Source: Fistulifera solaris (Eukaryota; Bacillariophyta; Bacillariophyceae; Naviculales; Stauroneidaceae). From it: 64,000 nucleotides of DNA. The stretch's first letter is position 1; every line of letters starts with the position of its first letter. Made by a program: the position numbers and the translations under genes. Location of the stretch: positions 2,542,001 to 2,606,000 of the forward strand of contig AP026123.1 in the NCBI GenBank assembly GCA_030295235.1, in the 5' to 3' direction. The notes beneath the pieces were generated by a model. The model saw nothing but the letters and a program-made list of their open reading frames with translations, did no database searches and was not told the origin of the DNA. Positions 2,053 through 63,890 of this stretch are shown one piece after another.

Positions 2053-2113
2053 TACTGTAGGCCCAAAGAGTTGGTTCTAAGGTCAGCACGACTGTATTTC
2101 CAGTCACGAGTCA
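2053..2113 (+). repeat. dispersed hairpin repeat, copy 1
   Basis: Carries CTGTAGGCCCAAAGAGTTGGTT, then CACGACTG...CAGTCACGAGTC, which can pair as a short hairpin. Same order and spacing as the other copies in the window. Confidence 0.7.
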
Positions 2114-2273
2114 ATTAATTGTGGCAGACTAGGACATTCAAATTTCGTTCATTCTGCTATTTCGATAAGCTACACTGGTCGTTATTACAACGAAACAATA
2201 TTCAGCTCCATAAACGTTGAGGAACTTTATAATATGATGACCAAAAGCTTTGCGAGTCGTTGTCATGCCCGAG

Positions 2274-2330
2274 TACTATAGGCCCAAAGTGTTGGTTTAC
2301 GGCAACACTGCATTATTTCAGTCACGATGC
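2274..2330 (+). repeat. dispersed hairpin repeat, copy 2
   Basis: TACTATAGGCCCAAAGTGTTGG is conserved; the left arm of the hairpin is degraded (CACTG) while the right arm TTCAGTCACG is kept. Confidence 0.65.
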
Positions 2331-2378
2331 ACTAAAAACTGAGTTCTAGGGTTGAATTTAAATGTTTAGTCTAAAAAT

Positions 2379-4304
2379 CTATAACCTACTTTGTATGATC
2401 TTTGATTCAACAACACAGTTGTACGAGTGAAATCCTTCTCCGTGAACAAAGACGTACTTCTGTGGTTGGCTTTCGTCATCGTCGACCAAAGTCGCCCGCG
2501 TCCACCAAGGACCGTCAAATGCGGTATTTTCTAGCGGGCTACCAAGAGAGAAAGGAGCAAGAAACCCGACCTGTAGACCAGATTGAGTTTTATCTTGCTT
2601 TGGCAATGCAAAGTCAAGGCTGGATGACTTGTAGCACGACCCGTCACTCAGGGTTCCGTGCCAATGTACATCTAAAACTTTTCCACTTGTTGTACATTGA
2701 GTGATGAGTACCTCGCTCACAGCGACAAGACCGCGGCCGCTTTTCGATCCTTGCCTTCCCAAACCCTTTCTTTTGATCGAATCAGAGTCTTGATTCACAA
2801 AATTAACGTCACCTGAATAACTTGTATCACAACTAAGAATCCACGCAGTTCTGTTGCAGCCATGAAGCGGTACAGCAATTGGATTCGGCATATCACCTTG
2901 TGGCTGATGACCGGTGCAAATAATAGCTAGTCCGGAGCGACGGAAGAAATCTCGTACCAACTTAACAAATACAGCATCCGTCGGATCATCGCTGTTTGGG
3001 AAAAACGACCGGGGCATTCCGTTCGTACACCACCGATTGTAAACGATAGTTGGGTTGCGTCGCCCCTCGGGTGGAATGGAGCCCATTCCGTACTGCATCA
3101 GCTGCGAGAAGCTTGATTGTTCATCAATCAAATAATATCCCCACGCACCCTCCGACCAAAAGGGCTTTCTCGGTACGTCGTTAAGCGCTTCCTCTTTCCA
3201 TGACGCCACTCTCTCCTTCGCAAAGTTATTCAAGCAAGCTATCCAGCCTTTGATCGACGAAACACCCATATCGGAAGCTTTTGTGTTGTTAGGTAGCCAT
3301 GGCATGGCAAACGTCAGGTCGTCCCAGAATTCGTCCGTGCTAGCTTTTCTACGAGTTACATCTTGCAGTGTATCACTTGTGAATGGCAAGGCTCCGTGAA
3401 CAAACAAAATTTCTCCAAGCTGAATGGCAAGGTTGCCATTCGACAAATATCTCCCCATTTCCCCTTCGGGATGTGTGCTGCGCTGATACGAAATCACGAC
3501 ATCCTCGTCTGTTACAGTGGAAGTAAAATTGTCAGTGCTTTGACCTTTCAGCTCTTTTAGCAATAGTTCTTCTTGCTCAAGTTCCCACTTTCGGTAATCA
3601 AATGCCCTCGGACTGCCCATCGTATTTCTCAAAATCCACTTTAATCGCTCCGAGGGAGACTGCGTGAGCAATTGTCGCTCATCCGGGTCTCCAGTTATTT
3701 TTCTACCTTTTAACCAGTAAACTCCATACGACTCCGGCAACAATCCTTGCTCATCTTGATGCATTTCCTGTAGTAGTCTCATTTTGTTGATATCCCGATT
3801 TCCCACTACAATGTATACATGTTCCGGATACCGTTCTTTCAAATCGAGCAATTGCCGAATAACGTACAAATCCGAGCCCCCTTGATCCCAAATGTCCCCT
3901 CCAAACACCAAATAGTCCCGAAACGGTCGTTGAAAGTCAATGCAATGTTGGTAGGGAAAGAAATTGGTTTCGAGACGAGGAGTACAGGGTCGGAAGCATA
4001 GAACTTTGGACTGTTTCACGTATCGTGTCAGATAGTCGCGGTCGCCTTCAATATCGGTTATGAACGTTATCCTTCGACTGTTAACCTCTGATTGAGAGGA
4101 AAAGACACTAGTTGCCATTTTGGAAGCAGACGATAGATGGTTCCTCCGAGGCAAGAAAGCGGAAATGGAAGTTCGATGGGAAGCAAGAAATATTCGAATC
4201 CAGGGAGATCTCCCTGTTCGAATCGACAGCATTCCTGTACTGCTCCGACCAAAGATCCAATAGAAAGTGAACGCGACTATTCTTTGGATCGTCCGTATTC
4301 TCAT
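2379..4304 (-). CDS. calcineurin-like metallophosphatase
   Basis: A continuous 641-residue frame with ATG at 4304. Metal-binding motifs of the metallophosphatase superfamily are in order: D84 in FITDIEGD, GGDIWDQGG (D137), GNRD (168-171), VHGALPF, and TGHQPQGDMP near the C-terminus. The usual first motif D-x-H is D-I-E here, so one metal ligand differs from the canonical enzyme; a DIEG form is seen in some protist members. Residues 1-50 contain a hydrophobic stretch and SISAFLPRR, which resembles the ASAF plastid-targeting motif of diatoms, but the signal peptide itself is weak. A later start at Met63 (MATSVF) would give a cytosolic protein. Substrate unknown. No intron or frameshift is visible. 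Confidence 0.85.
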   Translation of the reverse strand: MRIRTIQRIVAFTFYWIFGRSSTGMLSIRTGRSPWIRIFLASHRTSISAFLPRRNHLSSASKMATSVFSSQSEVNSRRITFITDIEGDRDYLTRYVKQSKVLCFRPCTPRLETNFFPYQHCIDFQRPFRDYLVFGGDIWDQGGSDLYVIRQLLDLKERYPEHVYIVVGNRDINKMRLLQEMHQDEQGLLPESYGVYWLKGRKITGDPDERQLLTQSPSERLKWILRNTMGSPRAFDYRKWELEQEELLLKELKGQSTDNFTSTVTDEDVVISYQRSTHPEGEMGRYLSNGNLAIQLGEILFVHGALPFTSDTLQDVTRRKASTDEFWDDLTFAMPWLPNNTKASDMGVSSIKGWIACLNNFAKERVASWKEEALNDVPRKPFWSEGAWGYYLIDEQSSFSQLMQYGMGSIPPEGRRNPTIVYNRWCTNGMPRSFFPNSDDPTDAVFVKLVRDFFRRSGLAIICTGHQPQGDMPNPIAVPLHGCNRTAWILSCDTSYSGDVNFVNQDSDSIKRKGLGRQGSKSGRGLVAVSEVLITQCTTSGKVLDVHWHGTLSDGSCYKSSSLDFALPKQDKTQSGLQVGFLAPFSLGSPLENTAFDGPWWTRATLVDDDESQPQKYVFVHGEGFHSYNCVVESKIIQSRL

Positions 4305-5389
4305 TACGGGTATTTAGAACAGAAAGCAATGATGAATGCTGATATGAATGATGATGATCTCCATTGCGCTTCGATGAAAACAGTTTCGTCTTTTTTTTTT
4401 GTTGTCGACCTCTTTCCTCTTTTCTCTTATGGGCGTACGACGGACGTGCCAAATAAACCTTAACCTTGGCATGCCGATTAAAATGACCACTATAGTCCAA
4501 GCTTAGCTAGTCTACAATTCATTCATTCGTTCGCCCAATTTCTTGGGCCCCATGTGTCGACGTTGCATTCCAATAGTCCTTAGCAGCGTTTTCATTGCAC
4601 ACCATGATCTTTTCATGTAGTCTAGAAAAGCCTGCGAAACGTTGTCTGCCCTATTTTTACTATGGACCCAAAGTGTTGGTTAAGACAGACCACGACTGAG
4701 TTTCAGTCATGAATCAATATTTTTTCGAGAGACAGGCTTAGCTAGTCTACAATTCATTCGTTCGCCCAATTTCTTGAGCCCCATTTGTCGACGTTGCATT
4801 CCAATAGTCCTTAGCAGCGTTTTCATTGCACACCATGATCTTTTCATGTAGAAAAGCCTGCGAAACGTTGTCTGCCCTATTATTACTATGAACTCAAAGT
4901 GTTGGTTCAGACAGACCACGACTGAGTTTCAGTCACGAATAAACATTCTTTTCGAGCGACAATGCTACCTACAATTCATTCGTTCTCCCAATTTTTGAGC
5001 TCTGATTGTCTTGCTGCAATGCATTAGGCTAAGCAGCGTTTGCATGGCACGCCTTGATATTTTTACGTCGAAGTGCCTGCGAAACGTTCTCTGCCGTATT
5101 TTACTATAGACCAAAGTGTTCGTTGCGCAGACCACGACTGTCGCACTGGCGAGAATTTTCTCGTGTCTTTCATGCGCCGCCGAACCGCATTATTCACTGC
5201 GTTGAACTCGAAAATATTGCCTTCTGGTGTCAAGAGAAGCCTTATTTATCAATCTTATTGACGACGCCCGTCTCTTTGTTTACCAAACTTTGAACCTAAT
5301 CACGAGAGGGTGAAGGAAGGGGATCATTCGCCGGAATCGTAGCAATTAGCAAATAGCAGTGTCACTATTTCGTGTGAACACAACAACAA
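4305..5389. other. intergenic, mostly tandem repeat
   Basis: Between divergent genes. 4305-4500 is the probable promoter region of the metallophosphatase; 4501-5150 is three tandem copies of the dispersed repeat; 5150-5389 is the 5' flank of the membrane-protein gene. No gene supported. Confidence 0.5.
4501..5150 (+). repeat. three tandem full-length copies of the dispersed hairpin repeat
   Basis: Three units of about 225-235 bp start near 4501, 4739 and 4963. Each begins with a (TTAGCTAG)TCTACAATTCATTCG-type block, passes through TTGCATTCCAATAGTCC and GCGAAACGTTGTCTGCC, and ends with TACTATGGACCCAAAGTGTT plus the CACGACTG...CAGTCATGAA hairpin. Units 1 and 2 are nearly identical; unit 3 is diverged and its right hairpin arm is lost. 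These units define the full length of the element of which only the 60-bp end is seen elsewhere. Confidence 0.85.
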
Positions 5390-7541
5390 ATGAGCGTTTC
5401 CGCGAACGAATCTGATTCTCTGTTGCCGTCTAGGCATCATTCGTATGAACGAGAATCCGTCATTACATCCCGGTTTAAAACGATTCTTTTTCTAGTCATA
5501 CTCGTCTTTGCGGGGATCGCTTATCAGAGCGAAGTCAATCAACTACAGTTGTTACTTGAAACCCAGACGGAAAAGATCGATCATCTCGAGGCAGTATTGC
5601 AAATTCACAATGAAGTCATTAATCGATTTAATGCTTCCGTCACCAACTCGGATGTCGTTAAACGACTGGAGACGCTGGAAGATAATTTTGTGTTGACGCA
5701 GACGAAATTGAAAAAAGATCTCCAGAACGTTGAAGACAAGGTATCCGCCGAACTCGCGGATACGCTGCTGTCCCTCAATGCCACCGTCAGTCGAGCGGAG
5801 CGTGAAATTTCCGATGAAGTCGAAAAGGTCAAAAAAGATGTCGAGCACTACGTTGTGACCACGCAAGATCAGTTTAGCATGGAAAATTCGTTTATGGTCT
5901 ACCAACTCGCTGGAACGTTTACTCTGTTGAGTGGCTTGATTTCGATGTGGCACATGACGGCACATTTACGGCGCATGAATCAACCCGATGTCCAGCGCAA
6001 GATATTGGCGATTCTTTGGATGGTTCCCATATACGCCATCACGTCGTGGTTCAGCCTGGTGTTTCATTCGGCGGAAGGTTATTTGGCGATTCTGAAGGAT
6101 GGATACGAGGCCTATGTGATCTACCAATTTCTTTCGTTTTGCATCGCAGTTTTAGGGAAAGGTGATCGAAACGTTGTGATTGATTTACTCGCCAAGAGAG
6201 CCGATCACTTGACTCCGCCCTTCCGGCTCGTCGGTATTCTCGAAGTTTGTGGTTTGTGTCATCCGAAACAATACCCGAGCGACCGGGCTCTCGCTTCCGA
6301 TATCTTATTGCAGTGCCAATTTTTTGCCATGCAATTCGTTTTCTTTCGACCATTGACGACAACGGCTATGGTGGTCTTGAAGAAGATGGACTATTATGGC
6401 GCCGGTACGGGGCCGACGGACTTTCGCTCTCCTCAATTTTATATCACCATCATTCAAAACATTTCGATTTTCACCGCATTCACGGGGTTGTTGAAATTTT
6501 ACCACGCTGTGGATAAAGATCTGGCTTGGTGTCGACCTTTTGCCAAGTTCCTTTGCATCAAGTGCGTCGTGTTCATGACCTTCTGGCAGGGCCTGGCTAT
6601 TTCGATTCTGGCTTCGACCACGGATGTTGGCGGTCAGGATGCTACCGAGTGGGCGCAGTCAGCTCAGAACTTTTTGATTTGTCTGGAAATGTTACTTTTC
6701 TCCATCGCGCATTTCTACTGCTTTCCGACGGATGAATGGGAAGAAGGTTACCGAGTGAAGCATTCCGACGGAAAGTTTGGTGACAGCATTGCTCTGCGTG
6801 ATTTCTTCTCTGATGTGAAACTAATTCTGCGGTACGTTGCTTGTTCGTCCATTACAGCATTTACCATCGTTTTTGACACCTTTCCAGAGCCAATGCGCAG
6901 GACAAAGTTAAAAAGGTCGTTAGCGATTCTGCGATTCCCGAGGGCGATGAAGAAGAAGGTAGCCATGGGTCCAACAAAACCGAAAGCCCAAGTGTGGACG
7001 ACACAGATGTCGGTGCTTCAGTCGATTTAGAAAATAACGGATATCACACGCCCGCGATAGAACATCGATCGCTGCAAAAGAGGAGCAGCGATTAGCACTT
7101 GCTCTGGAAGAGTGTTTGGGACTCGCTGCTGACGACCCGGACATAGCAGAAGCCAAAGAAAGGTTACTGAAGAGTAACTTTCTATCACCAGATATGTTTG
7201 CGGCTTCAGATTCATTTGTTGACGACGATTCTATAGACAAGCAAATCGGAGCGTATTTGGGAGAAAATCTTGACGTTAGTGATGTTGCGGATGAGTCTGA
7301 AGTAGTTCCAGATGGCGATGCCGATGAAGAAATAGGCGATGCCGATTATTATCCGCAGGGAGGTATCTACAGCAACGTGAAATATGTCGAAGACGAGGAA
7401 GCAGCCAAAGAGACAACAAGTCTATTGTCTTCGCCAGACTACAAGCTACGGCCGAGCATCTTTACTACTGTCGCTTCGATAGCCGAACCTGAGCCGGAAA
7501 GTGATCAGAAAAATAAAGAGGAGGAAACATCATCAAATTAA
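5390..7541 (+). CDS. TMEM184/OST-alpha (DUF300) family membrane protein, spliced; one probable frame error
   Basis: ATG at 5390. Residues 25-45 form a first membrane segment, then a coiled-coil region (about 50-155), then the seven-helix organic solute transporter alpha/TMEM184 domain from MENSFMVYQL to DVKLILR, with family-typical SWFSLVF, YEAYVIYQF and FFRPLTT. The frame continues past an intron at 6832-6887 (GTACGT...TTCCAG, 56 nt, phase 2) into an acidic tail. That tail stops at 7095, but a +1 step at AA 7061-7062 joins it to an open frame reading AAKEEQRLALALEECLG and ending at 7541. I take 7541 as the real end; termination at 7095 is the alternative. The role in diatoms is unknown; relatives act in bile-acid or lipid transport or vesicle traffic. 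Confidence 0.8.
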
Positions 7542-7756
7542 GAAACGCAAGTCAAAATTAATGTTCTACTAGTATTGCAAAGAAATATCAACTGGTACCT
7601 TTGTGATTTGTAGGCGGAACCGCTCATAAAACAACCGATTCCCACAAATTAAGAAACGCAAGCCAAAATTAATGTTCCACTAGTATTACAAAGAAATATC
7701 AACTGGTACCTTTGTGATTTGTAGGCGGAACCGCTCATAAAACAACCGATTCCCAC
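7535..7756. repeat. 111-bp tandem duplication across convergent 3' ends
   Basis: Copies 7535-7645 and 7646-7756 differ at only about three positions. The left copy begins inside the last codons of the plus-strand membrane-protein gene; the right copy contains the stop and last codons of the minus-strand DDHD gene. So each gene end has been copied next to itself. A recent slippage or unequal-exchange event explains it. Confidence 0.95.
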
Positions 7757-11115: not shown

Positions 11116-11810
11116 TTGTGAGTTGTTTCGGATGCAAAGGAGAGTCTATGTGACAAGATAACCGAGCCAGAGAAGTTATGATAGAGGTCCGGCATTTAAA
11201 CTTTTCGTGCATTGCGTGTCAATGCCGTCGTCGCTTGGTTCAAACGAGTGTATTGTTTTCCGTCTCGCCTCTACACTATGCACCATAATGGCAAATGCTG
11301 CATCGAAGAAACAGCTCCGTCACAGTCTCTCCGGCATTGAACAATACCCATGGAACCTGACTATAGATCTAGAGAGTGTTCTCGGGTGTGCCGGACGGAG
11401 GACGACGGAGGAAAAAAGTCTTTCCGGCATTGAACAATTTATTTCTTACTAAACCTTCTACGGAGTAAGACCTATAATCATTGGGGATTGGGGCCCTTTT
11501 TGGGGGATTCAAATTGCTAGAAACCGTTATAGTAAAATTCACAACAAATGTGAGTGATTATTGAACGCTACGTAACTCCTCTAAAAACTGCTGCTTCTAT
11601 AAACAATTAACAGGAAATAGACCTCAAGTGACACTGAAAGAGGATGTTTGACGGTTGATTGTTGCTTTGGTGGCTGTTAAAGAGAAAACGAAGCAGAATC
11701 ACCTGTTAATTGATTTCATTTAATATAGTAGGACGAACAAAGGATGGTAGTGAAGCCGACATTGCTTTGTTGTGATGTCAATGGCGACGTTTTGTTTTTG
11801 TGAAAGGCAG

Positions 11811-13615
11811 TGATTCATGACTACTGTACAATCCAGTCTTGGATCGAGTAAACCCACACTCTGTTTCATAGTAAAAAATTCATTGTGTCGTTCCTCAGAT
11901 TTCGACGTGAAAATAGAAGAAATTCTTGACAAGTAGTTTAAAATTATCATTGTTGAGACTTAATATACTCATAATGATAAATATATTCGCAGTTGAATGA
12001 AAATGGACAAAAGCGAGAGACACCAAACGGACTCTTTTGTTGTTCGGTTCATGACTCATTACTACTGTACAAACCAGTCTTGGCTGGCGTAAACCAACAC
12101 TACGTTGCATAGTAAAAAATACAAGGTGTCGTTCCTCAGATTTTCGACGTGGAAATAAAAGAAATTCTTGACAAGTAGTTTAGAATCATCATTGTTGCCA
12201 CTTTTTTACCCATAATAGAATTAAATTCGCAGTTAAATGACAATGGACGGATTCGAAAGACACCAAACGGAATCTTTTGTTGTTCGGTTCATGACTCATG
12301 ACTCATGACTACTGTACAATCCAGTCTTGGCTGGCGTACACCAACACTACGTTGGACAGTAAAAAATACAAGGTGTCGATCCATGGATTTTCGACGTGGA
12401 AATAAAAGAAATTCTTGACTCTTGACAAGTGGTTTATAATTATCATTGTTGAGACTTAATATAGATACTCATAATGATAAATATATTCGCAGTTGAATGA
12501 AAATGGACAAAAGCGAGAGACACCAAACGGACTCTTTTCATCACTCATGACAACTGTACAATCCAGTCTTGGCTGGCGTAAACCAACACTACGTCGCATA
12601 GTAAAAAATACAAGGTGTCGATCCATGGATTTTCGACGTGGAAATAAAAGAAATTCTTGACAAGTAGTTTAGAATCATCATTGTTGCCACTTTGTTTACC
12701 CATAATTATATTTAAATTCGCAATTGAATGACAATGGACGGATTCGAAAGACACCAAACGGAATCTTTTGTCGTTCGGTTCATGACTCATGACTCATGAC
12801 TAATGTACAATCCAGTCTTGGATCGAGTAAACCCACACTCTGTTTCATAGTAAAAAATTCATTGTGTCGTTCCTCAGATTTCGACGTGAAAATAGAAGAA
12901 ATTCTTGACAAGTAGTTTAAAATTATCATTGTTGAGACTTAATATACTCATAATGATAAATATATTCGCAGTTGAATGAAAATGGACAAAAGCGAGAGAC
13001 ACCAAACGGACTCTTTTGTTGTTCGGTTCATGACTCATTACTACTGTACAAACCAGTCTTGGCTGGCGTAAACCAACACTACGTTGCATAGTAAAAAATA
13101 CAAGGTGTCGTTCCTCAGATTTTCGACGTGGAAATAAAAGAAATTCTTGACAAGTAGTTTAGAATCATCATTGTTGCCACTTTTTTACCCATAATAGAAT
13201 TAAATTCGCAGTTAAATGACAATGGACGGATTCGAAAGACACCAAACGGAATCTTTTGTCGTTCGGTTCATGACTCATGACTCATGACTACTGTACAATC
13301 CAGTCTTGGCTGGCGTACACCAACACTACGTTGGACAGTAAAAAATTCATTGTGTCGTTCCTCAGATTTCGACGTGAAAATAGAAGAAATTCTTGACAAG
13401 TAGTTTAAAATTATCATTGTTGAGACTTAATATACTCATAATGATAAATATATTCGCAGTTGAATGAAAATGGACAAAAGCGAGAGACACCAAACGGACT
13501 CTTTTGTTGTTCGGTTCATGACTCATTACTACTGTACAAACCAGTCTTGGCTGGCGTAAACCAACACTCCGTTGCATAGTAAAAAATACAAGGTGTCGTT
13601 CCTCAGATTTTCGAC
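11811..13615 (-). repeat. AT-rich satellite, about 7.5 units of about 242 bp, built around the dispersed hairpin repeat
   Basis: Units start near 11816, 12060, 12307, 12548, 12798, 13038, 13286 and 13526, each with CATGACT(CATGACT)...GTACAATCCAGTCTTGG...GTAAACCAACACT...CATAGTA. Read on the minus strand this is TACTATG...AGTGTTGGTTTAC...AGACTGG...AGTCATGAG, the same order as the dispersed repeat. Two unit types (ending GGACTCTTTT and GGAATCTTTT) alternate, giving a 2-unit period of 488 bp and a 4-unit period of 979 bp. The last unit breaks off at about 13615. Recurrent 71-codon frames inside it are by-products of the repetition. Confidence 0.9.
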
Positions 13616-19446: not shown

Positions 19447-19498
19447 GTATCGGCCAAAGTGTAGGCGACCTTTTCCACGACTGAAGCTCAGTCATGAA
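19447..19498 (+). repeat. dispersed hairpin repeat
   Basis: TGTATCGGCCAAAGTGTAGG followed by CACGACTGAAGCTCAGTCATGAA; intact hairpin arms. Confidence 0.7.
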
Positions 19499-19661
19499 TA
19501 TAAACTGCTTTGAGTCAGACCAATACCCAACCTTTGTTTTTCTGCAACCATTTTAACCTACATTTACTTTTGATCGAAGCCTACTTACTGCTATCCGTTT
19601 TTTCCGTGCACGCATCGATGGACGATGTCGATAAGCGTGGAGAACGTTGTCATTATTTATT

Positions 19662-19725
19662 ACTATAGATCAAAGTGTTGGTTTACGCCTATCCACGACT
19701 ACTATTCAGTCATGAGTCATGAGAC
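19662..19725 (+). repeat. dispersed hairpin repeat
   Basis: TTACTATAGATCAAAGTGTT, then CACGACTACTATTCAGTCATGAGTCATGAG. Preceded by the GAACGTTGTC block also seen in the full-length copies at 4.5-5 kb. Confidence 0.8.
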
Positions 19726-19814: not shown

Positions 19815-20125
19815 TCCATGTGCGCAGATTTTCTATGTAGGTGACAACACCGCGTGTCAAGATTTACTTGGGACGTGAAAAACCCCTCCCCACATTTTCT
19901 GAATAAATGAAAATACCGCACTCCCAGATTTTCTGGACACGTGAAAATATTACCCGCCCACTTTTTCTGAAGACGATAAAATATCGCACTACCACATTTT
20001 CTGGAGAGGGAAAAAACCACACCCCCACATTTTCTGGAGACGTTAAAAAAAAACCAAGGAAAAACCACACTCCAACATTTTCTGGAGACGTGGATAATCA
20101 CTCTCCCACATTTTCTGGAGATGTG
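19815..20125. repeat. degenerate minisatellite, core CACATTTTCTGGAGACGT
   Basis: Seven or eight degenerate units of about 33-50 bp, each with C(C)CA(C/G)ATTTTCTGGA(G/C)ACGTG followed by AAAA(T/A)ACC. The core TTTTCTGGA resembles the ATTTCTGGAA core of the satellite at 31.8-33.1 kb. Open frames through it on both strands are repeat-driven. Confidence 0.8.
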
Positions 20126-20312
20126 AAGCACCACGTCCTTGCAATTTTGCCCGTTATTTTTGTTTACCTGGTCCACCGTCCACCATTGATTGCCTTGTCG
20201 ATCATTTTAAGAACATTACGTAGTATTAATGTAACAAATTCAGCGCTCCACAGCTACGCTGAACGATCGCTTTTCTCCTTGCTGACACGACGAAGAATAT
20301 CGAAGGACAGAA

Positions 20313-25292: not shown

Positions 25293-25711
25293 GTTGATGT
25301 ATTTCTTATGCCTTGCTGGCTTCTCTCTTTCGAACTCTCACTTAAAACTGATACTCCTGGTGAATGAGCTGATATAGAAAGGATGTCAATGCTTGGATCG
25401 CTTTCGTTCCTTTTTGTGAATAATAAGAGACATTGGCATCCTCGCCCACAATGCGAGAGTGTGTCGAAGGAAAAAGAAGGAGATGTCTTTTTTCGCGAGA
25501 CTTCTGGTTACCGCATGGTCGGACGGACCTTGGTCGTAGTAAAATCGAGAGGGCACACACTGGCTAGGAATGTTTTCCATGAACGAACAGACAACGATGA
25601 GCAAGATCATTCGACGTCTAGAATGACATCATACAGTAGCACAAATAGCTGTAGCCTACCAGTAATGAGCAAAACAATTGCAAATTGAAGCAGTTCGCAT
25701 CGATTGAATCC

Positions 25712-25795
25712 TGATTCATGACGGAAATGCAGTCGTGGTCAAATCCGGGCAACACTCTGGTCCATAGTAACTTTCCGAAGACAACGTTTCGCAAG
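25712..25795 (-). repeat. dispersed hairpin repeat, inverted
   Basis: Plus strand reads TGATTCATGACGGAAATGCAG TCGTGG...CAACACTCTGGTCCATAGTAAC...AGACAACGTTTCGC. The reverse complement has the GCGAAACGTTGTCT block, TTACTATGGACC, AGTGTTG and CACGACTG in the standard order. Confidence 0.8.
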
Positions 25796-26127
25796 AATCA
25801 TTCACGACAAATAGCCGAGTGAGCAGTTCATGCTGCTTCCCGTTCAAGCACAGTGATGGAAGCGTGTCAAGCTAGCAATGGACGGACACGACGGAAGTGC
25901 AGTAGTGCTTTCGATAAAACAACATTCTCATGTTTTTTCTTGCTACTCTCAATTTTTATTTTATTTATTTTATTTGCTGCAAAAGCATTCAATCAGTTTT
26001 CAATACAATGTAGTGCAACTGATAAGCAAAAAGTGTTGTTGATTCATTCGCTTGCGACGCCGATTCTTTTCCTTCTTCCGTCGAGCGAGACGAGCGGAGG
26101 CTCGTTCGCAGTCTGGCTCCTTAGCTG

Positions 26128-26160
26128 AGTGACTGAAATGCAGTCGTGGAAAAAGTAATA
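26128..26160 (-). repeat. partial dispersed hairpin repeat, inverted
   Basis: GTGACTGAAATGCAGTCGTGGAAAAAGTA: only the hairpin and adjacent A-run remain. Confidence 0.6.
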
Positions 26161-26441
26161 TACACAATGAGCTATAGCTGGTTCCAAATTAGTCGCAGCG
26201 GTAAGCGCACTTAATTCGACCTTCGACCTTTGTTTACCTTTTCCCGTGTGCGCGCACCGCGCGCTCTAAAATTTCCCTCCGCAACAACAAACGCAATAAC
26301 GCAACAAACAACGCAACAAAAATAACCGCAAAGAAATAAAACCAACAACAACGTTCTATATTACATCATTGTCACTTTTACTCGACCCGGATCTCTCTTC
26401 TCAACAAGTTCGAATCAGAAAAGCATTAAACGGGAAACGCT

Positions 26442-30331: not shown

Positions 30332-30516
30332 CTTTCGCAAGTTGCACCACATACGTCTTTAGAGTAATCCATACGCTTAGATGAAAATCATAATTCAAAC
30401 TAGGTTGTGGGGGTTGATGATAGTTGCGGAGTCCATTGTGGTTGAACCGCATTTTAAAACTTTGATTCCTTTCGAAAATCATTGCGTTCAAAGTTATGTC
30501 TTCCGAATGTTTCGTA

Positions 30517-30578
30517 TGGACTATAGGCCAAAGTGTAGATGACTTTTTTCACGACTGCAAGTCAGTCACGAGTCACGA
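30517..30578 (+). repeat. dispersed hairpin repeat
   Basis: GGACTATAGGCCAAAGTGTAG...CACGACTGCAAGTCAGTCACGAGTCACG; both arms intact. Confidence 0.75.
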
Positions 30579-30732
30579 TTCTGCTGAGCCAGATTTCATC
30601 GCAAATATTCGGTTCGCTCTGTAATTTTGGTGAACTCCTTTTGTTCCTAGCATAGTCAATTTTACCATTTGAATGATTTTCAATGCACGGCTCAATATTT
30701 TGCTTCAAATTTGCTTCCGAGTCGCTGTCGAC

Positions 30733-30772
30733 CTATACACTAGCACGACTGCAGTTCAGTCATGAACCGTGG
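30733..30772 (+). repeat. dispersed hairpin repeat, internally deleted
   Basis: CCTATACACTAGCACGACTG then CAGTTCAGTCATGAACC; the AAAGTGTTGG block is missing. Confidence 0.55.
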
Positions 30773-42600: not shown

Positions 42601-42755
42601 TTCCACGGCTCCGTCTCTTGCAAAAGCTGAGGCGGCATCGCCTCTTCATCCAACATCACGTCGATTGATGAGTTCGTCGCGGCAGATCGAAGGAGAGGCT
42701 TTGATACGTCTTCTTCGGAAGGTGAAATAGGACTAGAGTCGTCGGAGATTTTCAT
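39622..42755 (-). CDS. AAA/STAND ATPase with COG3899-type helical domain, copy 1; four frame breaks
   Basis: ATG 42755. Residues 1-50 are leader, then EEQELQNIINSKPSLILITG, Walker A GSSGSGKTS, Walker B VLLFLDDLQWAEP, CRSEEV, winged-helix-like LKLQKLSLETQRALALASFMG, and TPR-like helices (GQSTPGRW-like arrangement in LTGRWRRIRQAKKC, SLLHRALIAEHKSYFLRGCG). This is the predicted-ATPase family found in bacteria next to kinases and sensor domains, but here no kinase or sensor domain is attached. Breaks at TTTT 41501-41504, CCC 41400-41402, TTT 41287-41289 and CC 40753-40754 each need one base. The intact copy 2 shows the expected reading. Either consensus errors or a decaying copy; the density (four) exceeds that of copy 2 (one). 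Confidence 0.75.
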
Positions 42756-44050
42756 GGACAATAAAAGGTAAGGAGAACAACGACGCGCTGTGCACTATTG
42801 ATCGCTTGAACTTGCAATGAAACAACGAAAATAAAGAGAGGAGCGAGGTTGTAATTTTTGCAGTTGCGACCCATAGTTTTGAGCACGAAGCACGCGAAGC
42901 TTGGAAAACGGAAACGGGATGATGGATGATGGTGCATGCGGGATGCGGGATGCGGGTGCATGGTGCATGGTACTTGTTCTTCGTTCTTTGATGACCGACG
43001 ATGATGACTCCTCGTGTACTACTTACGAAAAAGCAGAAAATTGCTGTAAGGAATGCGTTGAGCTTAGGATTTTGTGCATTAAGCACGTGTTGCCAAGTGC
43101 AGCTTAACCCTATAGTCTTTGACCAATAGCTCAGGGCTTAAGTAAAGCTAAAGGAGCATTCCAGCATTCACCTACGTACCAGGTAGTAAGTCGTACAATC
43201 TACTATCAACTCCGATCTCCGAGCAACAAATTCCTTCCTGGCGACTTTACTTCAAAGCTATAGTTTTCCGACTTCCGACTTCCGACACTACTGTATGTAC
43301 TCAGCGATGACGTGGACGTGGACTGACATGACCTTGAACTTCGTATTGCATACGAAGACCTATGCCGGTAAGACGTCCGGGCGTTGGAGCGACAAAAAGC
43401 AAAAGGCAATAAAACAAACAACAAACATAAAACATCAAACAAACGACGCGATAACAAAGACGAGCTTCACATTGAAAGAATAGAACCATTAGCTTCAACA
43501 CTCCTTCGTCAGTCTTGACAGGCACTGTCAAAAGCCCTTACCAATCTTCTTGGCGGTCCTACAATCGCTTCCTTGCTGCATTTGGCCCGGACGATTGTAA
43601 GATGTACGATGCACGTTTTCCCTTCTCGCAAAATCAACCTGAATGCATTTTATATACAAGGCTTTTTTACGGTCAGCAGCCATCGCCGGAGTTATGTACA
43701 AGGAAGAGATCTTAAAAAGCAGAATAAAAACGAGATAGCTACCGTTGGAAATGTTCATTTATCGATGTTGAGCGGTAAACGAGCCCGCCTGCTTTCCTTT
43801 GTACAAGTAGCCTGCGCATAAAGGTAAAAATCTCTTCAGTTGCGGCTGCGGAACAATGCGGAACGAATTTTAAGTAGGCTCAGCAAAGGTTTGGCACGTT
43901 TGTAATGGGCAATTGTCGCCTAGAATTTGAAGAAAGATTGCTGCATATCGCTCGCTCACAGGAAAGACGCTTCTACGGTTGACTATGGTTGCATGTTCTC
44001 AAAATCATTCAAAATGGTTTAACGCATACAAGATTCAGGGAGCTGAAAAG
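42756..44050. other. intergenic, no gene seen
   Basis: Between the tandem STAND genes. A GGATGATGGTGCATGCGGGATGCGG-like simple repeat (split into short units) lies at 42915-42970. No coding region is supported in the remainder. Confidence 0.45.
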
Positions 44051-47000
44051 CTAATTAGTTTCGACAACGGTGACGCTTCCAGTGTGGCTGTTCGATTTCA
44101 GCACTAAAGGATAGGACGCAAGCTGATCAGTCTTCGCCTTAGCCCCCATTTCTCATACACTCTGCGTGCCGTTAGGAGCGTATCGATGGCCTCGTCGCCT
44201 CTATCACATTCTCTCAGCAATTTACTTTTGTGCTCGGCAATAAGGGCTTGATGCAAGAGAGAATTACCTCGGTCGCTGCAAAGAGATGCCCCATCAAAAG
44301 CTGCTAGCGCTCGTTCCTTCTTCGCCTCAACGACGAACAGAAGCGCTTTTAAGAAATGCACTTGGTGACCGTGGTCTTCCGGAACCATTTCCGCTCTTTT
44401 CCGTACGAGCTTGAGACATCTCTTCGCTTGCCTTATCCTCCGCCATCTTCCTGCCGGTGAACCGTGAGCTAAGATCAGTTTACTCGCCCCACCAAAGAAT
44501 AGCACACAACATCTCGAGAACTTTGATTGAACAGAAGGGAATGACTGATAGAAATCGAAAATACGCTCCGCGCGTGCGTAGTCGTTCATCGTGAAAGCGA
44601 CAATGATGCCACACATACATAACACGCTCTGTGCGGCTCGATTTCCCTGTCGTTCTGCGAGCTCTTCGGTTTCCTTTTGGTTGAGGAATGATCCCGTCAA
44701 TTCCACAGGGTCCGCTGTTCGACCAAGAAGATTTTCCATGGCTTGCAAAACGATATTGAAAAGAATCAGCATATTGTCATGTCGAAAAGAATTGAATACT
44801 TTACGGTATTCCTCTCCAAGCTGCACCAATTCACTGATAGATTCAGAACCCAGAAAACGAAAAAGTGTGGCGAGATAAATCGACCCTGTGGAACTAGTTG
44901 TATCACCACTAGCCAGTCCAGCTCTGTAACCTTCCATAAGAGGTTCGACGACCGTCCGAACAGACATTGTCTCTGTAAATGTCAAACCATATACCAGGGT
45001 GTAAACCCGGCTTACCCACGCCTTGGCATCAAGCTTCCGTATGATATCCAACGTGAGTTGACCGTACTGCTGTGCGAGTTCGGTATTTGACATCATAGCC
45101 ATTATCACGGAAAACATAGCAAACGCACTGACACTTTCTTCGTTCATACCAAAATCCAGTGTCAATCGGATCATAGCCATCGATAACGGTACTTGATACG
45201 GTGACCTGGAAAGAAATGCACTAGTGAACGTCTTGTCAAGAATTTCCATGGCGGCCTGCGTCTCGCGGCATGTCATGACAGGTAACGAGAGAATATCAGA
45301 TGGCTGAAGCTTCTTCAGTTTGCGTTTCGTTCTCAAAACTTCAACAGCAATCTGCAGCTTGCCGGCTCTTTTCGGAATGGGTATTTTGAGTTGTCTCAGC
45401 AGGTGCAATCCTAACTGAACGGATTCCTCAAAACGTAATTGGGAGGAGTATGAGCTGATAGTCACCGTATGCGCTAACACGGAATCAAAGAAGGACCTAG
45501 CGTTCTCGATAACCTCGCTGGCAAGTCTCTCGGCGTTGTCACAATTCCCTAGGACGTGCTCAACCTCGGCTGACGCCGTGAATATACTGAGGGAAAGGTC
45601 ATATTGATCTCTCCAATGTCGTGGCGGAAGCAATGCCCGAGCAACTTGAAATTTGTTAACGGCTGCAGTAAAGCAAGATGACCTTAACAGACTTTTCGCT
45701 GCGAAATAGAACAGCTCGGCGTATTTCACTCTCTCCGATTCATCGCTTACGAGTTGCAAGCTCTGGCTTAGCAGATGTGCCAAGAGAATGGAATTCTCTT
45801 CCAGGGCACTTGTTCCACCTAGCTTGTCCACAAGAGTTCGAGCTGAATCAAGGAAGAATTTAGGTTTTTCCATCTCAGGAAGAAGGTCATAACACGCTTG
45901 CTGAACTTTATCATGACGGAATTCAAAGTAGGCAGTCTGATTTTGTTGCCTGACAAGCCTCGACGATTTATTTATTTCAATTGAGTTCAAGAAATGCTGC
46001 TCATCTTGATTTAAGGCTAAAGACACGAGTCTTGAGTCGAATCTTGTTCCCATGAAGGATGCAAGGGCAAGCGATCTCTGCGTCTCGATGGAAAGCTCCC
46101 GCAATTTCAACGTAATAACATCGGTGATGGCTCCTCCCGAAAGTGGATTGCGAAACGAATTTAGTATCTCCAAATCACAACGTAGATGCCCGCCCTTCTC
46201 AGAAACAGCCCCCATGGATTTTAGAGTGCGAAACAGTTCCAGAGTGTAAAACAAATTTCCTTGAGTTTGTTGATGCAAAATCTCGGAGAACTTTTGGCAT
46301 TGCGACGTTGCTAACCCCGACGACTTTGAAATAAGTTCACATACCTCAGAAATGTTCAGCTCACGTAAGTGAAGATCTTCAATACGAAGTCCTTCAGTTT
46401 CCAGCTGACGTAAAGAGACGGATAGATCAGAATCCACCGACACCTCGTCGCTACGACAAGCTGCGATGATTTGTAGCCCAGGAATTTGTTTCCTTAGTAT
46501 CGCCGACAGCATGTCCAAAGATTCGGGCTCCGCCCATTGTAGGTCATCCAAAAGCAAAAGGACCGACTGCTCTGTTTCACGACAAACTGATTCGAGAAAG
46601 CATGTCACTATGTGCCGTAGGCGAACTATTCGCTCTATACCCTGATAGGTAGCCTTGTTCTGAACGTCTTGTTTCGGTAGTATTTTCGATAAAGCAGGTA
46701 TCGCTGCGGCTAAAAGACCGATTTCTCCATTGACAGCTTCCGGTAAAGTCTCTCGCAGCCTCTGAAGTTGCTCTGCATCCAGTTTCGTCAGCAATTGCTC
46801 CGTTAGGTCTGAAAGCGCAGCACTAAAAGGCAAATACGTTGCGGGGCACATTTGATCGAACTTTCCGCTACAAAAATAATCAAATTGTTCGCCGTACTGA
46901 AGAGCCAAATAAGTCTTGCCCGATCCGCTAGGACCTGTTATAAGGATAAGCGACGGCTTGGAACTGATGAGTTCCTGAAGTTCTTGTTCTTCGCGACGGC

Positions 47001-47154
47001 GCCATTTCCACGGCGCTTTCCCTGGAAGGAAGTGGGTCAGTTGCTGCGCTTGCATGTCGTCGAAAGAGGTAGTCTTTAGGGTAGTCACCGCAGATCGAAG
47101 CAGAGGCTCTGCTGCTTCCCCTTGGAAAGACGAATCACAGACGGAACTTGTCAT
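44051..47154 (-). CDS. AAA/STAND ATPase with COG3899-type helical domain, copy 2
   Basis: A frame of 1,063 codons is open from 47295, but the start that aligns with copy 1 is ATG 47154 (MTSSVCDSSFQGEAAEPLLRS). Walker A GPSGSGKTY, Walker B VLLLLDDLQWAEPES and CRSDEV are present, followed by about 700 residues of TPR-like helices. Copy 1 is roughly 80% identical by eye. The direct frame ends at 44104, but one more C at CCCCC 44143-44147 gives AKAKTDQLASYPLVLKSNSH and a stop at 44051, matching the end of copy 1 (KSNSHTGSVSI). Such ATPases are signal-transduction NTPases in bacteria; the diatom role is unknown and a bacterial origin is plausible. Confidence 0.85.
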
Positions 47155-47751
47155 CGTATTGACTATGTCCGATTTTAACTTTTCGGAAAAGAACAAATGC
47201 AAGGAATCAAAAGGAAAGAGAGCGTCGTGCTGTATAAGGTTTATAGCGAGGCCAAGCAGTTCAAAGACAGCTCGTGCGAAAAACGAAGAATACATCGGCC
47301 TTTGTCGCCTTGGTTAGTGGTGCGAAATTCGTTCGATATCACTATGAATCAATCTGTAAACTAATTCGCTGATCGACAAGAAATCTTACGCATGGACTAC
47401 GTGAACGTGATGTCTTGTATGACCGATGACAACGTCACTGTTGGTACCACGTGTTACTATAAGATGATGTGTGGCAATTGAGAGCCGGCTGGCGGACATG
47501 TGACATTGCTTACTACTGCTTCTTAGAGACATGGGGTCTCACTGGTAAGTTGTGAAATGTCTTGTTGACGAAGAAGCGCAGTAACAATCAAGCCTACAAT
47601 GTTTTCTATACAAAGTGTACCGTATAGTATACCGCTGCGACTGATGAAAGCGGCGAAGAGACGAAAACGAGAAGCGACGACAGCACAAAAGCAAGGCACA
47701 ATGAACTCACAACACCGCATCATGATAACTAAAATACATTGATAAATAGTT
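47155..47751. other. divergent intergenic, no gene seen
   Basis: 5' flanks of STAND copy 2 (minus) and of the orphan gene at 47752 (plus). Nothing distinctive. Confidence 0.45.
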
Positions 47752-51283: not shown

Positions 51284-51713
51284 AAATGATACTTTGAAAC
51301 AATTTTTAAATTTAGATTAAGTTATTATTAGCCAATTTTGAATAGCATTTGTAGTCCTCTCTTTATACCAGGTAGGAAGGGAAAAAGCAACAGTGATGGC
51401 GTTCGACCATCTGTGACTCATGACTTAAGTCCAGTCGTGATGAAACAGGATGCACACATTTTATTGGACAATGGTGAAAGTCTTCATGGCGGATAGCTCG
51501 ATGTAGAAAACTACCAGTATACAAGTAGCGCATAGTCGTTTTTCTCTTGCAGTATGACTCAGAGCTATAGAAGTACAGCGACTTTGTTGTGTTCATCGAT
51601 GTTGCCGTCGATTTCTTGAGGACGTAAAATAAAGAATTCACGTGCGCGCAATTACGCCGATCGAAGAGAGTAAGCATAGGAAATTCTTGTCATTTATGTT
51701 CTACTTTCACAAC
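51284..51713. other. intergenic with a partial dispersed repeat
   Basis: Between convergent genes; partial inverted repeat at 51415-51440. No gene seen. Confidence 0.5.
51415..51440 (-). repeat. partial dispersed hairpin repeat, inverted
   Basis: GACTCATGACTTAAGTCCAG followed by TCGTGA; only the hairpin remains. Confidence 0.55.
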
Positions 51714-52799: not shown

Positions 52800-53810
52800 T
52801 GTTATAAAGGAAAGAGAACACACGTTTGCAACAAAAGGAATTGAAATATTCCTGAAGATTCATTCATGCTCATCATCGTCATTTCGATCATCGCATTTTG
52901 CATCGGCGGGTGAAAAAAGCCGTTGATAATTTGATCGTACCACCACTCGTGATCCATGTAAACGATGCCGTAGCGACTTTCACGCTCCGGCCGATGGGCT
53001 CTCCAAGCATCTCTGATTCATTCACTCTCATGATCGTAGACGGCTATGAACCTCCGTTATCATTATTCTGCTAACATGATTAGCTAGCTAGTCTATGCTT
53101 GTCATTCGCCTTGAAGTTACTCTGAAATTTTTACGTATCAACGGGTTTCTGGTGAACTATAGGTCTAAAATGTATATTACCTTTTTCCACGACTGCAGAT
53201 CAGTCATGAGTTGAACCGGACTACGGAGTATTATGGTTACCTAGCTAGACCCTATAACTAACTTCATTCGTCTTTTAAAAAAAAAAAGATCGACAAATCC
53301 TTGATGATTCTTTCCTGTATAGTCATTGCGGATGTTAGTCTTTCGATTATACTAAATCAAATTATCCTTTCAATGAATCATTCAAAGCACGCAGTACGGA
53401 AAAATGGGCTCGAATTCGAGAAAAAAAAATAAGAACTATTTTATTGGATGGAGAGCTAGTCGCTTTAGGGTCACCTACTGTATCCATAGGATGCCATGGC
53501 AGAATATTTTTGTTCCAGATGCTATTCATGAATCGCAAATTTGTGTAGTTTTGCATTTGACTTTTGACGAACAATGTGAACTGCCACCTGCTTCCATGAT
53601 TGGAATAGCACTTTTGCCTTTCAGGCGTCCACAAAGCTGGCTCTGCTAAATTTACAAGATACAGTACACGTCTTGTCGACCATCGCCTACCCAAGCTCCG
53701 TTGACACACTTTATCGATTTGAAGGAATCAACCCATGACTAACTTTCAAGCCAGGTGGAATATACTCTTGTCGAGCCTGTTCCTGTTTCGTCAATGCGCC
53801 ACCAGTACTG
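52800..53810. other. intergenic with one dispersed repeat
   Basis: Contains a full-length but diverged repeat copy at 53086-53213. Otherwise only short frames; no gene supported. Confidence 0.5.
53086..53213 (+). repeat. dispersed hairpin repeat, shortened copy with both ends
   Basis: Begins TTAGCTAGCTAGTCTATGCTTGTCATTCGCC, as the 4.5-kb units do (split here as TTAGCTAGCTAGTCTATGC then TTGTCATTCGCC), and ends AACTATAGGTCTAAAATGT...CACGACTGCAGATCAGTCATGAG. The middle is about 100 bp shorter. Confidence 0.7.
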
Positions 53811-58743: not shown

Positions 58744-59429
58744 AATTAGATGGACGCTCGAATGCTTATCTATCGACTGATGCACCGCGAAATGAGATCT
58801 TTTGCTTCATTCGTATCCGCTGTTGAAAACAATGCAATCGTATCGAAGCAAAGGATCGCGATAAGGAGAGCGTTTTTGCGAGCTGCGAGCGGCGGACGAG
58901 TTTTCGCATAACTCATGACTGAATCCAGTCGGAGAAAACTAGGCTACCCGCTACACTTCGGCTTACAGTACCGTGACATAGGCCGTCAACGTCAGAGACC
59001 AGAAATCATGCCAGAAACGAAGCAAAGTATACATTCTTGTATCAAACCGACGTATTCGTACGTACTTCTAAATCAACACTTCTGAACTCACAGGTCCAAG
59101 GTCCAAGTCATTGCGGTCATTTGTCATTCGGATTACACCGCGTTCCAACTTCGCAGATCAGCATCACTTTATCGTTCGATGTTGATGCGTGGCTCCCGAT
59201 CGAGGGGGGATGATGAATAGAGTAGATTCAAGACGACAGATCGGCGTTCGGATGCATAATTCGAAACAGGATGAATCAGAAAAATTCGCATTTGCAACCA
59301 GCTTTCGGCATTACGTCTCCGTGCAGGCATTAAATTCGCCCAAGAACTCATCGGAATTCCGATCATTAGCTACCAACTTCCGAAACTTTAGCCACCCGTC
59401 GCCATTATTTTGTCACCGCCTCGAAAAAC
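58744..59429. other. intergenic with a partial dispersed repeat
   Basis: Holds the thioesterase promoter and a hairpin remnant at 58911-58932. An ORF at 59212-59437 has no recognisable features. Confidence 0.4.
58911..58932 (-). repeat. partial dispersed hairpin repeat, inverted
   Basis: ACTCATGACTGAATCCAGTC: hairpin only. Confidence 0.5.
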
Positions 59430-61789: not shown

Positions 61790-62230
61790 GTTTGAAATAT
61801 GTTATTCGATGAAAAGGAATCAAAGAAACTGGAATTAAGGCAAGCTGCTCGTACGATTCCGGGTCGCTTCTCACTATCTTTCTTGTGTATGACACGTCTG
61901 TTGTTAGCGCTTGCCTTCTCTGCGTTCTTCTTTTTTCTATCTTTTCACGAAAAATGAATCACTTGAATGACAAGACCAGCAAGAAAGGAAGTTGTATTTG
62001 TATAACAGAAACCTTTCGTTGCGTCGAATAAGATAAGTGTCATCGTTCGTTTGGTCGCAAAAAAAGCGCAGCGCGGCGCCGAGCAGCGGCGAGAACATCC
62101 CTCCAAAGAACAAGAGACAAGTCACAGTGCGACTTTAACCATGCTAACTATTTAGCTGTCTACATATATTCTGTAAAAGTACCAATGATCACACCACTTT
62201 ATTTTGAGGTCTATGGTCTATGGGGGAACC

Positions 62231-62248
62231 CCTAAGGACGTCCTTAGG
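62231..62248. repeat. perfect 18-base palindrome
   Basis: CCTAAGGACGTCCTTAGG, flanked by GGGGGAAC on the left and AACCCC on the right, so the symmetry extends with mismatches. A second, 15-base palindrome CGTAGAATTTCTACG lies at 62282-62296. Confidence 0.9.
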
Positions 62249-63831
62249 AACCCCATCGTGAGACGTGAGAATCAGAAGTAGCGTAGAATTTCTACGTTCT
62301 TTTCGTACCGAAATTCCGGGTTATTTTTGCTTACAACGTTCAAATCACCACTTTACGCTCACAAACTATTGATAACGAAAAGGACAGATTAAAGCCATAA
62401 CAAAGTCAACAAAGTAAAAAAATCCTTTACATCAGTTACCGCTTAGTTGTTTAGATCACGGTGCTAAACAGGAATTTTACTGGGAACCTTTGTGCGAGCC
62501 AAGCATCAGCAAGATAACATCTACCACCGTTTCACGAGGCACATGCCCTCGTTCAGAGCAAAACTGAATTATCACTAGCGTTTGCGCACACCGACTGCTT
62601 GTGCAATAACATTTTTCAAAATCTCAAAAGGTGTATGATTGTAGCATATTGTTTCTTTCTCATGGGAGTCTCTACCGTGCAATGGCGACAGAAGTGGCGA
62701 TTCAGGTCTATGGGCACAGGAGGCCGTAGTTTGACGCTTCGTAGTGCATCATAAGTTTTGTAACTGCTCTTTCATCGAACTTCTGCTTCTGCGACTTGTC
62801 GAGTAATAAGATTCAACTTGCACATTATGACCCCATTGCCTCGCCAATGCAAACAGAATGACTTGAGTTCTGCTGATGAAAGCAGTTAGGTCTCAACCAC
62901 TTCGAAGCAGCAGTGTATTGTAAAAATGATCTTTTTCCTCTATACCGTCTATTCTTTCCAAGACAGCCTATCGTATTCAACAGCATTAACAGTTGCTCTC
63001 TTGACTGACTTGCCGAGCTTTTCATCCGGGTATCAGTATCGAGAGTTCTTTGCAAGTGAAGGCATTTGCGTAAATTTCCCAATGACGACTGCGAAAATAC
63101 GATACGCGCGTCAACACCCTCTTTGCTTGACCAGTTTATTGTAGAGGTGAATGGAGAAACAGTACATCAACAACCACGTCCTGCATATTATCGAGAACAA
63201 CGCCGTCACAGCCTCGTAAGCTGTCATGACGTCGGAGCCTTTGCGGTGCATCTACGCTAAGTGATCGACTTAATTTGTGATCGCTCGCTAAGCAAAGAGA
63301 ATATTTTCGTGGATTGCGGGCGTAATAACTGTTAACATTAGCAATGATCTTTGAATGCAACAACATGGTGAAATTGTGGTGAATTCAAATGGCAGTTTGA
63401 TTTTTGAAGCCGACGCAAGGCTTTTGTCTATTTCAAAAACGTGTTACTACACATTTCGTCATAGTTAAAGTTTTGTACCAGTGCTACGGCCGAGGCTACG
63501 GCACTTCTGATTTTTCACCATGGGGTTCCCCCATTGCCCATTGTGCACCAATGCCAATGTCGTCTTCTCTGACATGGACAATTCGTACCATTTAAGGATA
63601 ATCGACATCGAGTTAACAGCAATACGTGAAAATACTAAACTAATGCAACGCCTCGAATGTTTACGTAAAATTCACGTAGCGCTTTTACTGGTATGAACAT
63701 TTGGACAAAAATGATACTCCGGAGTAGAAATGTATGCACAGTATTTATTTTTAACTTTCAAGGCTTTAAGGGGTTACAGGTCTCATTTGAAACGCAACAA
63801 AATCGAAAAGCTTTCAGATCGTCGACTGGAT

Positions 63832-63890
63832 CACTATAGGATCAATGTGTTGGTTCTAGGCGACCGCGACTGAATTCCAGTCAGGCTCCA
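63832..63890 (+). repeat. dispersed hairpin repeat
   Basis: CACTATAGGATCAATGTGTTGG then CGCGACTGAATTCCAGTCAGG; hairpin arms intact. Confidence 0.65.

Follow-up and report, generated by a model that had tools for sequence, protein, structure and literature searches.

A probable satellite-like tandem repeat with a conserved hairpin box between the genes of the allodiploid diatom Fistulifera solaris

What is the short hairpin that recurs through the intergenic DNA of a 64,000-nucleotide stretch (the window) of the genome of Fistulifera solaris, an allodiploid (hybrid) diatom with two parental chromosome sets? A first-pass annotation had counted at least 16 copies and proposed either a non-autonomous mobile element whose 3' end is conserved or a conserved regulatory or structural element. 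Using nhmmer and a profile built without the window, we found 24 family copies at E≤0.01, on both strands and spanning positions 2,052 to 63,883, whereas 20 dinucleotide shuffles of the window gave only 1 match in total at the same threshold with this held-out profile. The recurrence therefore lies far above chance, and an origin as chance matches is refuted. The earlier impression of many copies on both strands was right, but the true count is 24, and its text passes over an eight-copy tandem array at 11,808-13,587. Genome-wide, the pattern CACGACTGN5CAGTCATGA has 655 exact matches (325 forward and 330 reverse), while its reversed control has 0. The literal word CCAAAGTGTTGG alone is a weak signal, with 13 window matches at up to 2 mismatches versus 5.8 expected; the pattern CACGACTGN{4,8}CAGTCATGA occurs 4 times versus 0.00 expected. 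Of the 24 window copies, none overlaps an ORF of at least 180 aa (37 such ORFs, defined from stop to stop), in agreement with the earlier statement that no copy lies within coding DNA. Across all loci analysed, 15 of 128 boxes fall inside ORFs of at least 130 aa. These results support a real, dispersed and non-coding family in a diatom.

The hairpin box, a palindrome whose two 8-base arms enclose a 5-base centre, is part of a monomer of about 220 bp that is repeated head to tail in short intergenic tandem runs of 1-12 boxes at the loci analysed. A same-strand upstream neighbour lies within 300 bp for 88 of 148 profile matches, with a spacing mostly of 190-250 bp, and what had been described as a full length of 225 bp with 3' fragments is really a series of head-to-tail monomers. 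In an array on C2, the 221-bp monomers are 99-100% alike. Near-constant monomer length and head-to-tail order are thus both found, as in satellite-like tandem DNA. Our monomer alignment drew no more than two monomers from any one locus, except for the window, which supplied more, and comprised 52 of 79 monomers; the best-conserved parts are the box and GCGAAACGTTG, with a mean majority per ten columns of 0.80-0.90 compared with 0.52-0.82 elsewhere. Our preferred reading, which we consider probable, is that the family is a satellite-like, non-coding tandem repeat with a monomer of about 220 bp in short head-to-tail intergenic arrays, in which the hairpin box is best conserved.

We then compared the window with its homoeolog, C4, in which three clusters have no counterpart; counterparts exist for two pairs and for two single boxes. 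The first cluster without a counterpart is an array of about three monomers on the plus strand (4490..5154; repeats D11, D14 and D15), belonging to a subfamily of the window's own subgenome. It contains boxes at 4641..4734 (76.7 bits) and 4867..4961 (65.8 bits) and a third at 5086..5140 (36.0 bits, profile positions 1-56 only), which the array edge truncates within its hairpin. The left edge of the array falls within a monomer and the right edge in mid-hairpin; the site measures about 827 bp in the window versus about 267 bp in C4, and C4 homology picks up again at 5139, at the array edge. The second is the eight-box array on the minus strand (11808..13610; repeats D1, D3 and D5), whose spacing alternates around 241 and 247 bp, with boxes at 11808, 12044, 12291, 12538, 12770, 13023, 13258 and 13512 (29.8-39.4 bits); the C4 alignment around it stops at 11111 and restarts at 14282. 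The third lies on the minus strand, where no homoeologous counterpart was found for the boxes at 25700..25785 (62.4 bits) and 26130..26177 (28.5 bits); a degenerate box (12.2 bits) stands at 25887..25928.

The copies common to the two homoeologs are a plus-strand pair 216 bp apart at 2052..2120 (35.3 bits) and 2271..2334 (31.2 bits), a second plus-strand pair at 30515..30591 (52.9 bits) and 30741..30772 (22.6 bits), and single boxes at 51402..51479 on the minus strand (29.1 bits) and 53153..53212 on the plus strand (36.5 bits). In a further plus-strand pair, at 19448..19515 (40.7 bits) and 19657..19723 (47.5 bits), the second box has a C4 remnant in which the hairpin and right flank are partly kept. 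A single degenerate box at 58908..58972 on the minus strand (20.7 bits) has homoeologous traces in the form of a weak C4 match, and a single box at 63830..63883 on the plus strand (31.7 bits) completes the set.

For the subfamily of the window monomer, all 49 of 49 scored rows fell in one subgenome (18 arrays, ten verified homoeolog pairs); for the subfamily of the C2 monomer, at an identity of at least 90%, all 18 of the 18 closest rows fell in one subgenome (10 arrays, eight verified pairs). The best 40 of 150 and the best 40 of 298 candidates were scored in these searches, and consequently the split covers close relatives rather than all copies. Thus each of the two recent subfamilies tested is seen in only one or other subgenome, which is a new observation, and on the rows scored on verified pairs both show homogenisation within a lineage. 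The best reading is that the family is old, having sites common to both subgenomes, and was amplified further in each progenitor after the split.

Under the satellite-like reading, unequal exchange between direct-repeat boxes would make arrays grow and shrink, and single boxes would represent the collapsed state of arrays. New sites might be reached by tandem DNA in pieces whose ends are arbitrary, as when excised circles or rolling-circle copies reintegrate, and each progenitor lineage would then homogenise its own copies. The box could persist as common ancestral sequence or as a preferred exchange site, and RNA structure would be unnecessary.

The array edges bear on this reading. Starts and ends of arrays (n=47) map to many points of the monomer, although 31 of 47 ends coincide with the profile's second hairpin or follow it closely, partly since the profile ends there, and 16 of 47 starts lie at the first; this clustering may reflect a real boundary or be an artefact of the profile limits. 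Two arrays on different chromosomes, C2 and C22, are 92% identical over 994 columns and have neither edge nor flank in common, and at one orthologous site C36 and C37 carry one box versus two. Despite the ends near hairpins, these observations point to local changes in copy number without fixed ends. The repeat (GTCATGA)n is present behind some last boxes, but it is equally common inside arrays (17 of 78) and at array ends (9 of 40), and we dropped it as a candidate 3' tail. The data do not support the earlier proposal that a mobile element has kept a conserved 3' end, GTCATGA not being end-specific and the C2 and C22 arrays sharing neither edge. Mobility in a wide sense is nevertheless likely, given the many sites and the three clusters of the window that C4 does not have. 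No target-site duplication was shown in homoeolog alignments or in the joined flanks of five leader-bearing elements, where sites were mostly diverged. In the empty-site comparisons, C1 and C2 both carry the element, and C9/C10, C15/C16, C21/C22 and C28/C29 were too diverged for a clean junction. Terminal inverted repeats, which a MITE would have along with target-site duplications, were sought in the window at lengths of 25 bp and above, and shorter ones would be missed.

Among 14 loci selected out of 26 leader-like matches, 13 have a leader (CAGAATTTCCGTCTG...) 63-78 bp upstream of their first box; the 12 matches set aside are mostly CCAGAWTTTCTGG repeats or lack a nearby box. Of 18 additional loci chosen for an exact match to the leader, 16 carry a box downstream. 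The leader resembles a fixed 5' portion of some older element of a more ordinary kind. Together with the ends near hairpins and the excess conservation of the arms described below, the leader counts against the satellite-like reading. It would fit a non-autonomous transposon of the HINE/DINE-1 (Helentron) type, in which the leader would be the left end and the last hairpin the right end, with monomers between them and a rolling-circle replicase supplied in trans. According to PMC7492417 and PMC4067079, oyster Cg_HINE and DINE-1 have a comparable layout, in which a left module and short satellite-like arrays mostly of few monomers are accompanied by a palindrome close to the right end. Such an element would also agree with the frequent position of array ends right behind a hairpin and with the pieces of Helitron replicase that a protein search found at five places in the genome. 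On the other hand, every monomer carries the palindrome, which is not confined to a right module or a 3' end, the two recent arrays have no common edge, and no subterminal inverted repeat was noticed by eye between the leader and the right end. We regard this transposon as unlikely.

As to Helitrons proper, which have a 5' TC, a 3' hairpin with CTRR and insertion between A and T, the leader starts with TC at 20 of 32 loci and the right end lacks CTRR; read in reverse, the leader ends in CTGA, which a T follows at only 6 of those 20 loci. The family was accordingly rejected as a Helitron. The one Helitron examined (C13:591297-593141), a genuine element of 1,845 bp with TC...CTAG ends of its own, inserted between A and T, is nested inside the repeat, and it was set aside as the carrier. 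A search with the Helitron Pfam family PF14214 gave no match in the genome, and none in 14 control genomes either. The genome search for reverse-transcriptase domains returned 26 rows.

The conservation of the box might instead reflect function in DNA, with a host protein (a regulator, a CENP-B-like protein or a recombinase) whose binding would preserve the palindromic box as the remaining monomer sequence drifts. Stem covariation was examined in 76 distinct copies out of 120 kept, leaving out the C1 loci picked by exact pattern (to avoid bias), partial matches and copies with more than 4 mismatches per arm. Over 7 stem pairs, only 2 compensatory cells were found, and 55 of the 76 copies carry a C.A mismatch in the stem. 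The arms are thus conserved as sequence and not as pairs, which speaks against the structural element proposed earlier and is consistent with protein binding. A structured RNA element was rejected on these counts and on the lack of an Rfam match in the window and four element loci; a ribozyme, considered on account of GCGAAAC, likewise had no Rfam support.

Binding by a protein would agree with the high conservation of the box and GCGAAACGTTG in the monomer, and we take ATGAGTCAT to resemble an AP-1/GCN4 site. Between homoeologs (seven boxes, five regions; gaps left out), 108 of 119 arm positions are identical (91%), compared with 81% in the flanks and 79% in the rest of the box. This excess would favour function, but it is biased, the window boxes having been found by their arms, and with gaps counted whole boxes are no better kept than their flanks (66% versus 67%). 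Whole boxes thus show no sign of selection and do not support the conserved regulatory element proposed earlier, whereas the arms show a slight sign of it and might. Around 39 box clusters flanked by ORFs to left and right, gene orientation showed nothing clear (16 versus 7 in tandem gene pairs), and whole clusters missing from one homoeolog adjoin colinear genes. A functional DNA element is, in our judgement, improbable.

More doubtful still is a role of the box in recombination or integration, with a recombinase encoded by the host or by an element excising monomer circles there and reinserting them into other boxes; if true, this would explain the conserved box, above all its arms, as well as the drifting interiors, the head-to-tail arrays and the single boxes. 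Least credible is a SINE- or LINE-tail-like retroposon with a 3' stem-loop and a short repeat tail, 5' truncation of which would yield single boxes: the many array ends just after a hairpin and the (GTCATGA)n behind some last boxes would suit it, but GTCATGA is no commoner at ends than inside arrays, no tRNA (ARAGORN, window) or Rfam similarity was found, although decayed heads could be missed, and no target-site duplication was shown.

The family, read as satellite-like, resembles several known systems in part. CENP-B-box-like motifs are short, conserved and partly palindromic boxes within fast-evolving satellite monomers; the F. solaris box is likewise conserved among drifting monomers and differs in its short intergenic arrays and in that any binding protein is hypothetical. 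The short dispersed satellite-like arrays of Crassostrea gigas, as described in PMC7492417, similarly have monomers of 100-500 bp, mostly few per array, are scattered in assembled DNA and form several subfamilies, some with flanking modules. In F. solaris, by contrast, the array edges vary, each monomer has a palindrome, any complete carrier is hypothetical, the two recent subfamilies are split by allodiploid subgenome and the host is a diatom. HINE/DINE-1 elements (PMC4067079) share the leader module, internal tandem repeats, near-end palindrome, non-coding nature and high copy number, whereas the F. solaris repeat has a variable right end and lacks subterminal inverted repeats visible by eye. 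Among the matches listed in a search of titles and abstract openings in the open-access literature, we found no description of comparable satellite-like repeats in a diatom.

Comparing the homoeologs shows that intergenic DNA between colinear genes of this diatom turns over in a lineage-specific way. In Xenopus laevis, in work cited in PMC5935921, subgenome-specific repeat relics served to sort allopolyploid subgenomes; the F. solaris subfamilies resemble these relics in having expanded in one progenitor and differ in being short tandem arrays and not transposon relics. For F. solaris, PMC5935921 itself based the sorting of subgenomes on GC and codon usage, and it reports a flip of the GC ratio on chromosome 10. 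The two subfamilies offer a sequence label for each parental subgenome that is independent of this sorting, and such labels could be used to check the chromosome 10 flip.

Moderate enrichment was found for CCAAAGTGTTGG alone, with 13 matches at up to 2 mismatches against 5.8 expected in the window, and the hairpin pattern that the first-pass annotation had described as recurrent clearly exceeded chance (4 occurrences against 0.00 expected). We built a profile of 92 positions for the box, which is the hairpin-bearing and best-conserved part of a non-coding monomer of about 220 bp, from loci outside the window. At a cut-off of E≤0.01 it identified 24 copies in the window and 1 in total across 20 dinucleotide-shuffled windows, and a profile including the window copies returned the identical 24 sites. 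None of the 24 overlapped an ORF of at least 180 aa, in agreement with the earlier observation that no copy lies inside a coding region. Genome-wide, the strict hairpin pattern had 655 occurrences, 325 on the forward and 330 on the reverse strand, compared with 0 for the reversed control. Because the window and its 70-kb homoeolog together contain 33 profile matches and only 5 strict-pattern matches, the genome-wide total can be put, reasonably but roughly, at several thousand copies.

The boxes form runs on one strand, with 1 to 12 boxes per run: 88 of 148 profile matches had a neighbour within 300 bp upstream, mostly at a spacing of 190–250 bp. The consensus of 52 monomers from 30 loci has the box (TTTACTATGGACCAAAGTGTT...CCACGACTGCATTTCAGTCATGA) and GCGAAACGTTG as its most conserved parts, with weaker conservation over most of the remainder. 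At window positions 11808–13610 the monomers make up a higher-order repeat, their lengths alternating around 241 and 247 bp; 300-nt stretches spaced 488 and 979 bp apart are 96–99% identical, and therefore this array grew by monomer pairs. Among 14 selected loci, 13 have a leader, CAGAATTTCCGTCTG..., located 63–78 bp upstream of the first box. Genome-wide there are 23 copies of its exact form, CAGAATTTCCGTCTGC, and further loci chosen by that form had a box downstream in 16 of 18 cases. The leader is dispensable for arrays, because several arrays close to the window monomer begin elsewhere. It looks related to a second intergenic palindrome family, CCAGAWTTTCTGG, which is tandem with periods of 33 bp or about 213 bp, is found at window positions 19878–20160 and 31822–33063 and at many other loci (89 matches over 186 kb of loci versus 0 in one shuffle), and is somewhat commoner downstream of box arrays.

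Short satellite-like arrays dispersed over many sites have precedents, one of them in the oyster, in which HINE (Helentron-type) elements carry them (PMC7492417); a carrier of the box family, if any, was not demonstrated. Since this is so, and since none of the HINE- or Helitron-defining features examined could be shown for it, the box family is a newly found example of this known type; among the matches listed from the open-access literature, none described repeats of this sort for a diatom. Some 340 bp away from one array, a 386-aa frame resembles Helraiser (7lcc_A, E=2.5e-19), and Helitron replicase matches comprise ten rows at five places in the genome. One of the five is a whole 1,845-bp Helitron on contig C13 (C13:591297–593141, loci L005/L094), TCTATTTATA...GCGGCTAG, whose termini, TC and hairpin-CTAG, are canonical and which contains part of a Helraiser-like replicase. 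It is inserted between A and T within a box monomer, the intact neighbouring monomer representing the empty site, and is a later guest and not the carrier. Its ends serve as an example of Helitron termini in this genome, and visual inspection places the same 5' end at the left boundary of the array at C5:531651.

Array edges, mapped on the monomer for 47 starts and 47 ends, were scattered over many points. The first hairpin coincided with 16 of the starts, and 31 of the ends lay on the second hairpin or directly after it, a clustering that may be an artefact because the profile begins and ends at those hairpins. The most clear-cut comparison is between one array on C2 and one on C22, with 92% identity across 994 columns: if they were copies of a fixed-end transposon they would have common edges, yet their left edges, right edges and flanks all differ.

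The first-pass annotation had also offered a structural element; a selected RNA stem is not supported by 76 distinct copies (chosen without reference to the exact hairpin, at most 4 mismatches per arm), in which arms and centre are kept as letters (most frequently CATTT at the centre), 55 carry a C.A mismatch in the stem, and arm covariation amounts to 2 compensatory cells over seven pairs. Conservation of the box is a matter of DNA-sequence constraint or common descent.

F. solaris is described in PMC5935921 as allopolyploid, with 42 homoeologous chromosome pairs and an overall homology of 75%. The contigs are likewise organised pairwise; we verified pairs 1/2, 3/4, 9/10, 11/12, 15/16 (the weakest of the ten), 21/22, 25/26, 28/29, 32/33 and 36/37, and found no homoeolog for the one piece searched of each of C5 and C7. 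A window gene and its homoeolog on C4 share 83% protein identity, the latter being FisN_20Lh058 (Fistulifera solaris; 636/636 residues identical). Over 64 kb, two box pairs and two single boxes are clearly common to the window and C4, and two further window boxes (19.7 and 58.9 kb) are doubtful in C4. Three window clusters (4.5–5.2, 11.8–13.6 and 25.7–26.2 kb) have no C4 counterpart beside colinear genes, and two C4 boxes outside the aligned parts (at 58,691 and 65,252, counted along the C4 stretch) were matched to no window box. At one C36/C37 site, a single box on one side faces an additional monomer and box on the other. Counting gaps, common boxes are 66% identical and their flanks 67%. 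With gaps excluded, the arms (108/119 identical, 91%) exceed the remaining box (79%) and the flanks (81%), contrary to pure drift, in a comparison that covers only seven boxes and is biased because the window boxes were found by their arms.

Other differences accompany this alignment. A stretch of about 7.1 kb (C4:2419070–2426181, loci L064/L065) is confined to the homoeolog and lies opposite window 21807–21811, where the flanking alignments overlap by 5 bases, as would be expected if an inserting element had duplicated a 5-bp target. Near a DDHD-domain gene, a 111-bp tandem duplication (window 7534–7755, 97% identical) is apparently single in the homoeolog. A tandem gene duplication (window 39622–42794 and 44104–47313, about 4.4 kb apart, 74–84% identical), whose second copy has an AAA/STAND-type NTPase domain, aligns with both copies to a single homoeolog stretch.

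Monomer searches scored the best candidates only, so the following split applies to close relatives. In the ten verified pairs, the window monomer matched the window's side in 49 of 49 rows (18 arrays) and the other side in 0, with 60 further rows on contigs outside these pairs. The C2 monomer, at 90% identity or more and with eight pairs used, matched C2's side in 18 of 18 rows (10 arrays), with three further rows on C6 and C8; the count was five versus one at 85–89%, and at lower identity the window's side predominated. The simplest account is that each progenitor amplified the repeat after the split, on top of an older common stock. The most interesting aspect of the box family is its use as a subgenome label.
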